Assembly: GCA_040755755.1 (NCBI GenBank)
Contig: JBFLZW010000046.1
Coordinates: 4,575 to 10,938, forward strand
Origin: a bacterium
GTDB lineage: Bacteria > SZUA-182 > DTGQ01
DNA: 6,364 nt
Reading direction: 5' to 3'
Shown: positions 538-6,075 of the stretch, one piece after another
Layout of the letters: each line of letters starts with the position of its first letter
Numbering within the stretch: position 1 is the first letter of the stretch
Program-made: the position numbers and the translations under genes
The notes under the pieces: generated by a model
The model's input: only the letters and a program-made list of their open reading frames with translations
Database searches by the model: none
Told to the model about the DNA's origin: nothing

Positions 538-3500
538 AGCGGTAGGTTATTGGGTGATTTGGTTATTTGCACGCCGGAGAAGTTAACCTTGACTTACGGC
601 AATGGGGCCTTCAACAGCGACGATGCGACCAGGTATGAGATGATTGGCGACAGGGCAGTAGCCTCGGCCAGACCACTGGGGGCTAAATTGTGCCTTAAGG
701 TGGATTGGCTGGAAGATAAGGGCAAGGTAAAATTTACCGATAATTGCGGCAATACGCTTGAGATTTCGCCTGATAGAATCACTTCAGATGACCGAGCCTG
801 GGTCAAGGTGCGGGATGTGGCTGAACATTTTGGCTGGCGGGTGGATTGGAATGTGCAGAATCGGATTGTGACGGTCTCTCCACTAAAACTAACCAGCCCA
901 AGTAACAATGCCACCTTTACCGTGGGCGATATAGTAAAGCTGTCTGCTACTGCCCCAGGAGTGGCCACAGCCAAGTTCTGGGTGAGTAACATCTCTACTG
1001 GGTGGTCAGATAATCCTGGCGGAGAGCTGCATGGAAGTTATAATTATTCAGTTAATTGGTCAACAATCGGATTGGATAGCGGCTGGTATTTGATAAGGGG
1101 GATAGGGTATGACAGCAGTCAGCAGGAAGTAGCACGGGATGAAGCTTATGTCAGGCTAATACCAGGCAGATTACCAAGTCCCAAAATTAACCAGCCTGCA
1201 AAGGATGTAACCCTGCCCCTTGGTGACATTACTGTCCAATGGAATTCTGTACCAGGCGCTGTAAAGTATTGGTTTAACATCCGAGATATTAACAGGAATA
1301 AGGTGCCGGAATGGTTTCATGATAATGAATTAAGTAAGGATAAAACCAGCTATAAAATATCAGCAGAAAACCTATCCAAGGATTATGAGGTTGATAAGAA
1401 AACAGAGCGCAGATACAGAGTGGCGGTAGCTGCGGTTCCTCAAGGTGCGCTTGCTTTATCGGACGCCTTGTGGTCAGAGGTGGAATTTACGGTTAAGTTT
1501 CCACCTGGATCTCTGGCAAAAGTAGAAATAACCGAGCCTAAAGAAAGCGGTAAAACCTACAACTTAAGGGATATGATAATAAGATGGAAGGAGGTGGCAG
1601 GAGCAAGCCAATATGCAGTGGCCATGTGGGAGTGGGAGCCGCCGATATTAGTCAGAAAGAAACAAAGGAGCAAAGCTCTATTGTCATCCAGCTGCGATGT
1701 CAAGGAGAAAATCTCATCATGGATTAACGAGTTAAATGGGCATCCTCCAAAGCTACTGAAGACAGACATAGATAAGGATAAGACTACCTATACTATACCG
1801 ATGACCAAGCTTGCCGAGGGCCATCAGTATATGTTTGGGGTTTGGGCGGTGAATGCAGAAGATTGTCTTGTGGGGCCACCAGGAGGGGTTGACTTCAAAA
1901 TAGCATCATCTACAATTTTAATAAAAATTGACACGAAACCACCTTCTGCGTATCCAGAAGATTCTTGGTATTTAGGAGATTGTCATGTACATACAAATTA
2001 CAAGGGGAAGGATAATCCTATTAATGAGGATAAAAATAAAGGGGTAATTGATCATGTAACAGTAACATTGGCTGATCGTATAAGCCAAGCACAATCTATC
2101 GGCTTAAATTTCTTAATAACTACTGATCATAGAAGTATGTTTGACCACAATAATGACGACAACTACTACGCTGGCATACGTTGGCAAGACTACGCATCTG
2201 CTTGTAATAAGTCAAATTTTCTTGTCATTCCAGGAGTGGAATTTTCTATAAGAAACCCCAAGGGAGGTGGGGATATTAGTCATTGTCTTGCTTATGGATT
2301 GGCAGCGGATAAAGATTTATTTAGCGAGTGGTGGAGGTTGAAGGATAGGAAGGAGGCATATACGCATCAGGAGATTATCAATAAAATAAATGAGCATAAC
2401 CCTGAAAAGTCGTTTGCTGTGATTGCTCACCCCTACCAAAATCCAAGTTGGAATAATTGGAATTGTGAGAATTTTAATGGAATACAACTACTAAATAATG
2501 AAAAAATGGCTGACCCTAATACTATTAGGATTAGGAAGTGGTTTGACCTCTTGAGAGACAGATTCGTTTCTACAGTGAGGGGAGGAGAAGGATTCGTTGT
2601 AGGTATTGGTGGTACAGATAGTCATTATGAGTATAATGATAACAAGGGATTTACCTGGGTATATACAAGTGATTTTAGTAGAGATGGCATATTGAAAGCA
2701 ATCCGAGCTGGTCGTGTAAGCGTTTCGGGGAGGAAAGAAAATTTTGGGGCTTTTTCAATTAATTCCCGACCTCAAGGAGACGTTGTTAAGGTATCATCAA
2801 ATGACACCCTTAACTGGAAATGGAAAGTCAAAGGGGATTGGAAAGATGTTACAATATATGATTATGATAGAACGACGTTTGGGTATTTTGAGAGGGTAGA
2901 GCGACCAGAAAAGTACGAGCATCCTTTTACAACTTCGGCTCCCCAAAAAGATACCTTCTATGTGGTAAGGTTTAGATATACGGATGGCAGTGATGTATGG
3001 ACTAATCCCATTTTTGTGGATGTTGAATCAAAATCATCATCACCACCTATACTCGTACGCGCCAGAACCGATTCTCTACCTGTTAGTTTACCTATAGAAC
3101 TTAGTCTTGCTGATGCCCTTCTCACTGCTAATGGCTCAGGAGGCGCAGCTGTGCAAGGTATGACTATATCTTCTTTTGATTGTCCTGCTGAATCTCTACC
3201 GCCATCAGGTTATATTAGTGATATCTATTACTTCAATGCTGACGATACTGACAATATTTCGATTTCTAACATTAGATTGACTATCACTTACAATGATTCT
3301 GATCTTTATGTAAATCCGAGCCGCTTAACCATTTATCAATATGATCCTATGGCTAAGAATTGGGTAGAATTGCCGTCAACTATTGATACTACCTTACATA
3401 CTGTAACTGCCAACCCTTATTCTCTAGGTATATTTGTCTTAAGTGCTTATGATGAGGAAGATTTTGTAGCTCCTGACATTGCTTTTGAAATACCCACTGA

Positions 3501-5571
3501 TGGAGTGATACTATGTGAGCCAACCACAGTCAAAGTTAGGGCAAGCGATTACAATGGGGTAATTAAGGTAAGATTTTATATTGATGGAGTATGGTTTGAA
3601 ATTGACAACTTCAGAGAAGACGGCTGGTCAACAACCTTTGACCCGCATCTCATCACCGCCGGAACGCACACCTTAACTGCCGAAGCCTTTGATGCCGCTG
3701 GCAACTCAAGTCAGGCCGAAATCACTATTTCCATCCCCGAATCTGTGGCAGCCATGTCGCCGGTAGTTTCCATCACTTCACCGGCGAACAATGCTGGAGT
3801 CTCTGGGCAAATAGCCCTTACCGGAACGGTTACTGCGGCCTCAATGCCTGAGATCGTTGCCGTGGTGGATGAGACGCCTATCGGCTGGGCCGAGATTGAC
3901 GATCAGGGCAGATGGACCATTGAGCTGGATACGACCATGCTAGACAATGGCCAGCATACCATTTCGATCCTGGCCACAGACTCGATGGGTGCCCAGGGCA
4001 CGGCCAGCCTGACTATTACTATTGCAAACCAGTACCACACTTACTACCAGGACGCCGACGGCGACGGTTATGGCGATCCTAATCGGTCAATCACTGCTCT
4101 TGCCGCACCAGCGGGCTATGTGGATAAAGGGGGCGATTGCCAAGACAGTGATGCCAATATCAATCCTGCTGCTTCTGAAGTCTGCGATAACAAGGACAAT
4201 GACTGTGACGGGCTGGTGGATGAGAACCTGGCCAAACCCTGCTCTACAGGCTGTGGCAGCGGCACCGAAACCTGCCAGGCTGGCCGCTGGGTTGGCTGCA
4301 CTGCGCCTCAGCCTCGGCCTGAAACTTGCGACGGCAAGGACAATGACTGCGACGGGCTGGTGGATGAGGGTTTGGCCCGCACCTACTACCTCGATGCTGA
4401 CGGTGACTGGTATGGGGATGCTTCCGAGAGCTTGCAGGCCTGCTCTCCGCCTTCTGGGTATGTGGAGGATGGCACTGATTGCGATGACCAGAATGGGGCT
4501 GTTCATGAAAACTGCGGATCGTCACAGCCACCTGAATCTCAGGCAGCCTGCCAGGAGGATAATTCAGGCGCGCTGGATGTGGTTGGAGCCAAGGGGAAGC
4601 CAGGGGATGAGGTTGAGATTGCCGTCAGAATCCAGGGGGCGCCTTGGGATGTCTACTCCTTTGGATTTGAGCTGACCTACGATCCTGAGATTTTGGAATA
4701 CCGGGAGGAAGATTATAAGTTAGGGGAGTTAGCCGCTTCCTTGCCTCTTTTTGGAGTAAGGGAGATCAGCTCTGGCAAGATAAAAGTAGCGGGTATTGAT
4801 CCTAGTGGTGGCAGTATAACCGAGGGTGCAAGCGGCACAGTGGTTGTGCTCAAATTCGAGGTCAGGAGCGGGATTCAGGGAGGAGAATGCTATCCCCTGG
4901 GGCTGGAGGCGCTCGATGGTGATATCACAGAATTTTCGGCCACTGGCGGCTGCCTGTGTGTTGAATGCCAGGAGCAGACTTCAGGCGTGCTGGATGTGGT
5001 CGGCACCACAGGCTCACCAGGTGATGAGGTTGAGATTCCAATCAGAATCCAGGGAGCACCAGATGCGGTTTCTTCCTTTGGATTTGAGTTTACTTATAAG
5101 CCCAATGTCCTGGAATACTCAGGTTATGAGAAGGGGGATTTGCCCGCCTCTTTCCCCATATTTGAGGTGATAGAGCTTGGCTCTGGCAGATTAAAAATAG
5201 GCGGGCTTGATCCCTACAGCGGGATAAGCGAGGGTGCAAGCGGCACAGTGGCAGTGTTAAAATTCAAGGTCAAAGAGGAGGGCAGTGCTGGCCATGAGGG
5301 TGAATGCTATCCCTTGAGGATAGAAAAGCCGGAAGATACTATCAGCCAGTTTGCCATCAGCGGTGGCTGCTTCTGCATCGAAACCTGCACTGGAGACCTT
5401 ACCGGAGATGGAATCGTTACTCCATCTGATGCTCTGATTGTCTTCAGATGCTACCTGGGTATAACCCCATGCCCTGAGTGTGCTGATGTTGATAAGAGCG
5501 GGCATGTTAGCCCGGCTGATGCTCTTTGCCTGTTCCGCAAATACCTTGGGATGGTATCTTGCCTGGATTAA
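1..5571 (+). CDS. Giant secreted multidomain protein (DUF1566, Ig/FN3, PHP phosphoesterase, MopE repeats, cohesins, dockerin), 5'-partial
   Basis: The frame is open from base 1 to TAA at 5569-5571. Codons 1-18 (PDTVWY) match the second DUF1566 copy, so the ATG at 19 is not the true start. Residues below count that ATG as 1. Domains in order: end of DUF1566 (to 27); full DUF1566 (50-173); probable amine-oxidase-type stalk domain (178-289, ending in a GWRVDWN...IVTVSP motif); Ig-like (290-382); two FN3-like (384-495, 498-629); PHP (645-905) with a C-terminal beta region (906-1003); beta-rich domain (1013-1144); two Ig-like (1150-1241, 1246-1337); MopE-type repeats (1338-1500); two cohesin-like domains (1511-1650, 1650-1789); dockerin (1790-1850). 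The adhesion and Ca-binding modules imply export, but the signal peptide is outside the window. No membrane segment, sortase motif or PEP-CTERM tail is seen, so cell attachment would have to be through partners. The substrate is unknown. Domain calls are by motif; the Ig/FN3/stalk borders are approximate. Confidence 0.93.
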   Translation, partial: PDTVWYVGFGYGGISYGNRGASQDSKYYVRAVRGSSADETVIDETVIVEKRKNYIYANGSYKANDDGTVSDETSGLMWQQETAGPMSWEEALRYCEGLTLGGYSDWRLPNINELQFLVDYSRYNPAINPELFPTTQASGYWSSTVNHCSPDNAWYVGFDYGWISYGSRGAGKYNVRAVRSGRLLGDLVICTPEKLTLTYGNGAFNSDDATRYEMIGDRAVASARPLGAKLCLKVDWLEDKGKVKFTDNCGNTLEISPDRITSDDRAWVKVRDVAEHFGWRVDWNVQNRIVTVSPLKLTSPSNNATFTVGDIVKLSATAPGVATAKFWVSNISTGWSDNPGGELHGSYNYSVNWSTIGLDSGWYLIRGIGYDSSQQEVARDEAYVRLIPGRLPSPKINQPAKDVTLPLGDITVQWNSVPGAVKYWFNIRDINRNKVPEWFHDNELSKDKTSYKISAENLSKDYEVDKKTERRYRVAVAAVPQGALALSDALWSEVEFTVKFPPGSLAKVEITEPKESGKTYNLRDMIIRWKEVAGASQYAVAMWEWEPPILVRKKQRSKALLSSSCDVKEKISSWINELNGHPPKLLKTDIDKDKTTYTIPMTKLAEGHQYMFGVWAVNAEDCLVGPPGGVDFKIASSTILIKIDTKPPSAYPEDSWYLGDCHVHTNYKGKDNPINEDKNKGVIDHVTVTLADRISQAQSIGLNFLITTDHRSMFDHNNDDNYYAGIRWQDYASACNKSNFLVIPGVEFSIRNPKGGGDISHCLAYGLAADKDLFSEWWRLKDRKEAYTHQEIINKINEHNPEKSFAVIAHPYQNPSWNNWNCENFNGIQLLNNEKMADPNTIRIRKWFDLLRDRFVSTVRGGEGFVVGIGGTDSHYEYNDNKGFTWVYTSDFSRDGILKAIRAGRVSVSGRKENFGAFSINSRPQGDVVKVSSNDTLNWKWKVKGDWKDVTIYDYDRTTFGYFERVERPEKYEHPFTTSAPQKDTFYVVRFRYTDGSDVWTNPIFVDVESKSSSPPILVRARTDSLPVSLPIELSLADALLTANGSGGAAVQGMTISSFDCPAESLPPSGYISDIYYFNADDTDNISISNIRLTITYNDSDLYVNPSRLTIYQYDPMAKNWVELPSTIDTTLHTVTANPYSLGIFVLSAYDEEDFVAPDIAFEIPTDGVILCEPTTVKVRASDYNGVIKVRFYIDGVWFEIDNFREDGWSTTFDPHLITAGTHTLTAEAFDAAGNSSQAEITISIPESVAAMSPVVSITSPANNAGVSGQIALTGTVTAASMPEIVAVVDETPIGWAEIDDQGRWTIELDTTMLDNGQHTISILATDSMGAQGTASLTITIANQYHTYYQDADGDGYGDPNRSITALAAPAGYVDKGGDCQDSDANINPAASEVCDNKDNDCDGLVDENLAKPCSTGCGSGTETCQAGRWVGCTAPQPRPETCDGKDNDCDGLVDEGLARTYYLDADGDWYGDASESLQACSPPSGYVEDGTDCDDQNGAVHENCGSSQPPESQAACQEDNSGALDVVGAKGKPGDEVEIAVRIQGAPWDVYSFGFELTYDPEILEYREEDYKLGELAASLPLFGVREISSGKIKVAGIDPSGGSITEGASGTVVVLKFEVRSGIQGGECYPLGLEALDGDITEFSATGGCLCVECQEQTSGVLDVVGTTGSPGDEVEIPIRIQGAPDAVSSFGFEFTYKPNVLEYSGYEKGDLPASFPIFEVIELGSGRLKIGGLDPYSGISEGASGTVAVLKFKVKEEGSAGHEGECYPLRIEKPEDTISQFAISGGCFCIETCTGDLTGDGIVTPSDALIVFRCYLGITPCPECADVDKSGHVSPADALCLFRKYLGMVSCLD
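112..141 (+). repeat. Perfect 15-bp tandem duplication (DETVI x2)
   Basis: The unit GATGAGACAGTGATA occurs at 112-126 and again at 127-141 with no mismatch, coding for DETVIDETVI in the linker between the two DUF1566 domains. It is a whole number of codons, so the frame is kept. It looks like a recent slippage duplication in a linker, and copy number may vary between strains. Confidence 0.9.
1951..3027 (+). other. PHP metallo-phosphoesterase module, CehA/McbA type, inside the giant protein
   Basis: Residues 645-905 carry the full PHP motif set in order: DCHVHT (H656, H658), TTDH (D703, H704), PGVEFS (E741), a further His in DISHCLAYG (H755), AHP (H804) and GGTDSH (D867, H869). These are the metal-binding positions of PHP enzymes, so the active site appears intact. 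The following 906-1003 region ends in a TNPIFVDV motif resembling the C-terminal beta region of CehA/McbA-like proteins. The family hydrolyses phosphoesters or, in CehA, the carbamate carbaryl. The substrate here cannot be read from sequence. Its place between FN3-like and Ig-like domains implies an extracellular hydrolase. Its codons are more AT-rich than those of the modules far upstream and downstream. Confidence 0.88.
4030..4518 (+). repeat. MopE-type Asp/Cys-rich metal-binding repeats
   Basis: Residues 1338-1500 contain two DADGDxYGD loops (1345-1353 and 1459-1467), each followed by a GxDCxDxxxxxxP-type or similar acidic Cys segment, and two CDxKDNDCDGLVDE motifs (1389-1402 and 1438-1451). 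A 33-base stretch at 4192-4224 recurs at 4336-4368 with one silent change (T4206/C4350), 144 bases apart. This matches the MopE-type putative metal-binding repeat (PF11617), named after a copper-binding surface protein of Methylococcus. The DxDxDG loops also resemble calcium-binding loops, so the bound metal is uncertain. Between the two motifs is a Cys-rich insert (about 1407-1438) with CSTGCGSGTETC. Confidence 0.85.
4549..5385 (+). repeat. Two tandem cohesin-like domains
   Basis: Residues 1511-1650 and 1650-1789 are about 140 residues each and clearly duplicated. Shared landmarks are LDVVG, GDEVEI, RIQGAP, SFGFE, a Y-x-P-x-x-LEY strand, ISEGASGTV or its TEGASGTV variant, ECYPL and GGC-x-C. 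A 22-base stretch at 4822-4843 is repeated exactly at 5230-5251. Cohesins are beta-sandwich domains that bind dockerins of partner proteins in cellulosomes and in many non-cellulolytic bacteria. Conserved Cys (C1624, C1645, C1647 and C1763, C1784, C1786) are unusual for classical cohesins and suggest disulfides in an oxidising, extracellular setting. Confidence 0.85.
5386..5568 (+). other. C-terminal type I dockerin
   Basis: Residues 1790-1850 hold two calcium-loop/helix repeats: DLTGDGIVTPSD (D1793, T1795, D1797, D1804) followed by ALIVFRCYLG, and DVDKSGHVSPAD (D1823, D1825, S1827, D1834) followed by ALCLFRKYLG. This is the canonical duplicated dockerin layout that docks onto cohesin. Six Cys (C1790, C1811, C1818, C1821, C1837, C1848) are more than classical dockerins have. 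The protein ends four residues after the second YLGM, with no anchor sequence behind it. Confidence 0.92.
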
Positions 5572-5624: not shown

Positions 5625-5738
5625 GCGCCCTCTCCCCTTTGGGGTTCAGGGTATGAGGAGCATTCGCTCCCTTATAGTGTAACAACAGGAGGCTGCCTCT
5701 GATAAATTACGCCCCTCTCCCCAAAGGGTTCAGGGGCG
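5625..5738. repeat. Degenerate CCCTCTCCCC palindromic repeat pair in the intergenic region
   Basis: Two related copies are seen: 5625-5651, with CCCCTTTGGGG at 5634-5644, and 5710-5738, with CCCCAAAGGG inside. Both share the CCCTCTCCCC...GGGTTCAGGG layout. The second is bounded by a 7-bp inverted repeat, CGCCCCT (5710-5716) and AGGGGCG (5732-5738), so it can form a stem-loop. Between the copies lie two smaller hairpins: GGAGC-ATTC-GCTCC (5657-5670) and GAGGC-T-GCCTC (5689-5699). Similar CCCTCTCCC-type dispersed repeats are common in bacterial genomes, but I cannot confirm copy number here. No T-run follows, so these are not convincing intrinsic terminators. Confidence 0.6.
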
Positions 5739-5778
5739 GACACTTTTGAATTTGGGGAAGCGGACTTTGGAATGCGGG

Positions 5779-5835
5779 CGGCAGCCGCAGAGTTATAGTG
5801 GCAGCCGCAGTTATGTGGAAGCGGCTTCCAGCCGC
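5779..5835. repeat. GC-rich direct repeat plus palindrome (REP-like)
   Basis: GGCAGCCGCAG occurs at 5780-5790 and 5800-5810, each followed by a TTAT-containing tail, giving two near-tandem units of about 20 bases. The 8-mer TTATAGTG at 5793-5800 also occurs at 5672-5679. At 5821-5835 is a 15-base perfect hairpin, GCGGCT-TCC-AGCCGC. The block abuts the truncated end of the transposase remnant and looks like an extragenic palindromic element that may mark the break. Confidence 0.6.
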
Positions 5836-5853
5836 GCCTCTTTGGCCTCTCAC

Positions 5854-6057
5854 TTCAGTAGTTTTGACTGATTGACTATCGATGACACCAGCACTGGGCT
5901 GGACATTTCGTCCCGATTGTTTTCTCACTTCTTGCCGAAGAGCAGTATGAAGTTTCTCCAGTGTTCCATCTTGTCGCCGGATACGGAAATAATGGTACAC
6001 TGTCTGCCAAGGAGGAAAGTCATGTGGCAATAAACGCCAGCCACAACCACTGCCAAG
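5854..6057 (-). pseudogene. IS5-family transposase remnant (internal fragment)
   Basis: Read on the minus strand, this frame carries [21 protein letters not shown], then [11 protein letters not shown] and [11 protein letters not shown]. These are hallmarks of the IS5-type transposase (DUF4096 followed by the start of the DDE domain); the Asp in IDSQSV is the expected first catalytic acid. About 66 family-like residues remain of a protein usually around 250. The N-terminal 40 or so residues are missing, with a stop at 6076-6078 two codons before the possible TTG start at 6070-6072. Everything after KTTEVRG, including the remaining catalytic residues, is replaced by repeat sequence. It cannot be functional. 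No terminal inverted repeats are recognised. Confidence 0.85.
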
Positions 6058-6075
6058 GAGGCGCGCTTTCAATTT

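Follow-up and report, generated by a model that had tools for sequence, protein, structure and literature searches.

The CehA/McbA family of metallohydrolases (NCBI model NF038032) includes the carbaryl and carbofuran hydrolases, and carbamate hydrolysis by CehA and McbA requires the HxH-type histidines as well as those of the PHP-like domain (PMC8292978). Solved PHP proteins such as 2anu (TM0559), 3e38 and 3e0f are annotated as phosphoesterases. Cohesins and dockerins are known from cellulosomal and non-cellulosomal proteins (Clostridia, Archaeoglobus, ANME archaea), where both can reside in one protein and the partner domains differ between close relatives (PMC9012536). DUF1566 (Lcl_C) domains, finally, are often targets of diversity-generating retroelements (DGRs; PMC6642488). 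The gene described here appears, from its sequence, to join known kinds of modules in a combination that is new among the architectures compared, so that the enzyme family is familiar and its packaging is unusual.

The window, that is the whole stretch of 6,364 nucleotides analyzed, was mapped in the genome to positions 4575-10938 of contig C46. A long reading frame runs without a stop from its first base to the stop codon at 5569-5571. The gene exceeds the window and its beginning sits upstream on the contig, beyond a gap of 100 Ns that directly precedes the first base of the window. On the far side of this gap, an ORF starts at contig position 3259 with the signal-peptide-like MRRLLCGLTLFILLLCSRLALADF and continues into three more stretches of Lcl_C repeats of the window's kind (contig 3364-4470). 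The gap interrupts an Lcl_C repeat, and since the window opens with the residues that complete it, both sides read as one gene. From this repeat pattern and the sister genome, we infer a single gene across the gap, which would encode a protein of about 2,250 residues, most of it within the window. Given the signal-peptide-like start and the surface-type modules, the protein is probably secreted and its PHP domain probably extracellular, as the first-pass annotation of this DNA had proposed.

The modules of the protein are all encoded on the forward strand. Lcl_C repeats, comprising the tail end of one and one whole copy, occupy positions 1-615 (PF07603, 126.6 bits, Pfam match at 199-537). The Lcl_C fold serves to bind ligands, and all six Lcl_C stretches of the genome are located on contig C46. 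The following segment (616-1950) is the start of a middle part that is replaced in the sister species and contains a Cu_amine_oxidN1-like stretch at 757-879 (PF07833, 27.5 bits) and Ig/FN3-like modules. Next are the PHP domain with its own C-terminal beta-sandwich (1966-3021), Big_7 and Big_13 Ig-like modules (3472-4023; PF17957, 86.9 bits and PF19077, 40.4 bits), and two putative metal-binding motifs of the MopE type (4135-4530; PF11617, 48.1 bits, two stretches). The protein ends with a first cohesin (4573-4884; PF00963, 46.3 bits), a second cohesin (4990-5292; PF00963, 47.7 bits, with a fold match of the modelled tail) and a Cys-rich type-I-like dockerin (5392-5538). The dockerin scored 22.1 bits in the window scan (cut-off 22.9) and 27.8 bits in the genome-scale search (PF00404), and is also seen in the tail alignments. 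The fusion of a PHP domain to cohesin and dockerin modules, noted in the first pass, was thus recovered by Pfam together with the Big_7, Big_13 and MopE modules, while the FN3 label on the modules ahead of the PHP domain had been a call by eye and Pfam did not recognize them. Separate from the protein, an IS4/IS5-family transposase remnant (5707-6072, reverse strand; PF13340, 44.2 bits) lies downstream of the gene, before the contig ends. An Rfam scan of contig C46 yielded zero matches.

The first-pass annotation had regarded the PHP form as distinct from the CehA/McbA type. NF038032 (CehA_McbA_metalo), however, scores 92.0 bits on residues 656-1007 (curated cut-off 80), and the alignment covers model positions 2-315 of 315, that is the PHP core and the C-terminal beta-sandwich. 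By NCBI's curated cut-off, the domain is a member of the CehA/McbA metallohydrolase family, and the last approximately 100 residues of the range first assigned to it (1951-3027, residues 651-1009) are the family's own domain, since the model covers these as well. The generic Pfam PHP model (PF02811) gave 13.3 bits, below its cut-off of 26.4, which is a detection aid and not a defining feature of the PHP superfamily. A stronger family member (L020) likewise falls below it, which shows that PF02811 is insensitive to this PHP branch.

All five motifs reported earlier were found in order within residues 651-1009, namely CHVH (661-664), TTDH (707-710), PGVEF (744-748), AHP (809-811) and GTDSH (871-875). 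They provide H662 and H664 (HxH), D709 and H710 (TDH), E747 (GxE), H810 (HP) and D873 and H875 (DxH) as metal-ligand candidates. H761 in SHCLAYG, absent from the earlier list, completes the set of nine that is expected of PHP enzymes (1984-2625). When the domain was shuffled 200,000 times, the ordered motif set did not arise once. In an alignment of nine divergent family members, 11 columns are invariant, and these include eight of the nine ligand candidates; H710 is replaced by Tyr in two relatives (L020 and L063). The domain thus appears intact by sequence. A single-sequence AlphaFold model had low confidence (mean pLDDT 40). Metal binding is accordingly predicted from sequence, and clustering of the ligands into a metal site from family membership.

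A catalytically dead domain, whose retained fold would, as in the adjacent modules, only bind a ligand or metal at the surface, would be compatible with the strong divergence from the aligned family members (18-26% identity, 26% at most), with the long insertion after the HxH motif and with the poor generic PHP score, and the neighboring Ig, MopE and Lcl_C modules are indeed non-catalytic. We nevertheless judge a binding-only role to be improbable, as all nine ligand candidates are retained in an otherwise very divergent sequence, which is most simply explained by selection on the site.

For an active enzyme, two classes of substrate come into consideration. A profile built from nine family members matches the PHP phosphoesterases 2anu (5.9e-18) and 3e38 (5.4e-14) in the PDB, and the HxH, TDH, GxE, H and HP motifs align with those of 2anu, 3e38 and 3e0f. 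This match is profile-only and restricted to the PHP core, and the solved proteins do not cover the multi-module setting of the gene; with the domain as a single sequence, the PDB search returned no real solved relative. The full-length model match and the ligand set are also those of CehA and McbA, which hydrolyze carbamate esters (PMC8292978) and with which the domain shares its NCBI family, so that the substrate could instead be a carbamate or carboxyl ester. The family is, however, huge and diverse, with members above the NF038032 cut-off in 120 of the 386 genomes searched, and the substrates of CehA and McbA therefore need not be typical. As the profile-matched solved relatives are annotated as phosphoesterases, we favor a phosphoester, and consider a carbamate or carboxyl-ester hydrolase rather unlikely.

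The PHP domain itself was matched in only five other genomes among the 386 (E 1e-5), but not in the other eight genomes of the phylum (E 1e-6). A phage search gave no match and a plasmid search gave a single one, annotated as CehA/McbA, from Hymenobacter (23.5% identity). Another CehA/McbA-like protein of this genome stands alone and begins with a signal-peptide-like sequence (L060:1343-3007); at 57 bits, it is under the cut-off. CehA/McbA domains are common on long, apparently secreted proteins. We scanned 14 members, picked mostly for their long frames, with Pfam. They carry CarboxypepD_reg, LamG, DUF4082, Big, CARDB or PD40 domains, or no recognized domain, and cohesin or dockerin was absent from all 14, on which basis we rejected PHP with cohesin/dockerin as a common architecture of the family. 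A literature search for cohesin, dockerin and PHP domain together found no related report. The parts being known separately, their combination appears to be new, and the earlier remark that no such architecture had been described stands within this limited search. Compared with CehA and McbA themselves, the present domain is embedded in a multi-module cohesin/dockerin protein.

The first-pass annotation had called the protein a scaffold, a term that overstates its tail. The genome contains 25 cohesin and 29 dockerin matches. With a profile of the tail, a cohesin-dockerin unit of approximately 200 residues, 14 complete copies were counted in this genome and a further 13 in the same-genus one; the tail is a common C-terminal module. 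Seven other tails in the genome are 52-60% identical to that of the window, with conserved cysteines. The last 201 residues (4966-5568), modelled with relatives from other genomes, reached a mean pLDDT of 90.4, and solved cohesins match this model, led by 5nrm_A (E 4.2e-13). As the tail ends 14 genes of the genome, it carries many cargoes besides the PHP domain, and the N-terminal parts of the tail genes are diverse, including peptidase C25, CotH, VWA, PQQ beta-propellers, NosD and SQHop-type repeats. Similar tails are present in Desulfococcaceae and Desulfobacteraceae. The Cys-rich unit (window 4966-5568, L041-L058) ends with DALCLFxKYLGQPSCLD and is C-terminal in all 14 genes. Another tail protein, L045 (contig C22:106000-115000), carries long Cys-rich CCP repeats (LWCRPCP...CCPVA), which are also present in the sister.

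The cohesin fold, the type-I-like dockerin, their union in one protein and the varied partner domains are shared with the cohesin/dockerin proteins of Clostridia, Archaeoglobus and ANME archaea (PMC9012536). Unlike in those systems, one cohesin and one Cys-rich dockerin here form a fixed C-terminal unit. In contrast to cellulosomes, a cellulase context was not seen, with no cellulases among the cargo of the other tail proteins scanned. In a cellulosomal scaffoldin, numerous cohesins would recruit cellulases that bear dockerins, next to modules for carbohydrate binding and anchoring; this protein has two cohesins only, and no carbohydrate-binding module was found. With cohesin and dockerin adjacent in one protein, the unit might pair with itself or link into chains.

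The gene was compared with its orthologue in the sister species (locus L067, contig JAILZY010000048, MAG HOT.CON.50). The Lcl_C end is 65.7-71.2% identical and the MopE-cohesin-cohesin-dockerin end 73.7% identical over 468 columns. Window residues 206-1392, on the other hand, have no match in the orthologue at E 1e-3, and homology picks up again at residue 1393 (nt 4177). The middle of the sister protein, approximately 1,050 residues long, is unrelated to that of the window and carries DUF11 and PKD domains. Replacement of the middle is not the general rule, since six other orthologous tail pairs (L044/L070, L050/L083, L052/L071, L046/L073, L051/L077 and L045/L069) align over most of their length with 58-75% identity, cargo included, and the pair L043/L072 deviates in part.

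The PHP part has a GC content of 0.383 (GC3 0.323), as against 0.540-0.542 (GC3 0.55-0.64) for the conserved ends. The unrelated middle of the sister protein and the low GC of the PHP part make the domain look like exchanged cargo that was probably acquired horizontally. Alternatively, the mismatch of the two middles could stem from deletion or rearrangement in either species. Horizontal arrival of the cargo would be the simplest reading; it is not proven by composition, since the gene of tail protein L048 is likewise low in GC.

A further feature of the contig is an element that lies 450 bp upstream of the gene (contig C46, L002:280-2809). It comprises an Lcl_C gene (contig 280-951) with a variable repeat (VR), a gene resembling bAvd (38.0 bits, just below the cut-off of 40), a template repeat (TR; contig 1577-1714) and a reverse transcriptase (RT), as in known DGRs with DUF1566 targets. 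TR and VR differ at 21 of 138 positions, of which 20 are template adenines, and in the DGR of the sister (L103) 14 of 16 such differences are at template adenines. By these sequence features, the element is a DGR acting on the neighboring Lcl_C gene.

Its immediate proximity, the adenine bias in both species, the Avd-like protein and the RT, together with the frequent targeting of DUF1566 by DGRs (PMC6642488) and the recurrence of the last approximately 20 TR bases in some Lcl_C repeats of the window gene, might suggest that these repeats are diversified as well, and that the gene belongs to a DGR-driven repertoire of adhesins in which the PHP domain is secondary. The substitution pattern speaks against this. 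Whereas the neighboring gene shows the adenine-biased signature, the Lcl_C repeats of the window gene depart from the template in 48-49 of their 120 aligned bases and 27-28 of these differences lie off adenine, so they are related to the template but are not recent copies of it, and we rejected them as DGR targets. Moreover, no second template was found among the Lcl_C-like stretches of the genome, and the RT frame of the element has 410 aa compared with 564 aa in the sister. We therefore regard such a DGR-driven adhesin repertoire as very improbable.

Two details of the element are recorded here. Past the end of the RT frame, a remnant of the missing part follows in a shifted frame (L002:2780-3240); this may be real or an assembly error. 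The stretch of approximately 20 bases at the 3' end of the TR, TATGTGCGGGCCGTGCGGAGC (L002:1690-1710), is identical in some otherwise quite diverged repeats of the window gene, and this identity extends to synonymous sites.

With moderate confidence, we posit that the gene encodes a secreted chassis of about 2,250 residues with an exchangeable middle, and that its PHP cargo most likely hydrolyzes, with the help of metal, an ester outside the cell, for which a phosphoester is the best candidate. According to this proposal, the protein would be exported from the cell, and the stable chassis would consist of the N-terminal tandem Lcl_C repeats and the C-terminal MopE-cohesin-cohesin-dockerin part, with the middle as exchangeable cargo. 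The Lcl_C modules might bind a ligand or surface, the cohesins and the dockerin might link the protein to the many other tail-bearing proteins of the cell, and the PHP domain would then hydrolyze an ester of a substrate held nearby. A broader and more speculative idea, to which we give little weight, is that of an evolvable, self-assembling exoenzyme layer, in which enzymatic middles are swapped on a stable chassis between sister species while the adjacent DGR diversifies a related binding protein.

The locus places a PHP hydrolase of the CehA type, probably extracellular, onto a cohesin-dockerin system without obvious cellulose use, in a candidate lineage where biochemistry is scarce. In the two sister species, one exoprotein gene has kept both of its ends and had its whole middle replaced, and this is a clear example from nature of what appears to be cargo exchange. 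The tail shared by 14 genes may represent a general docking tag.
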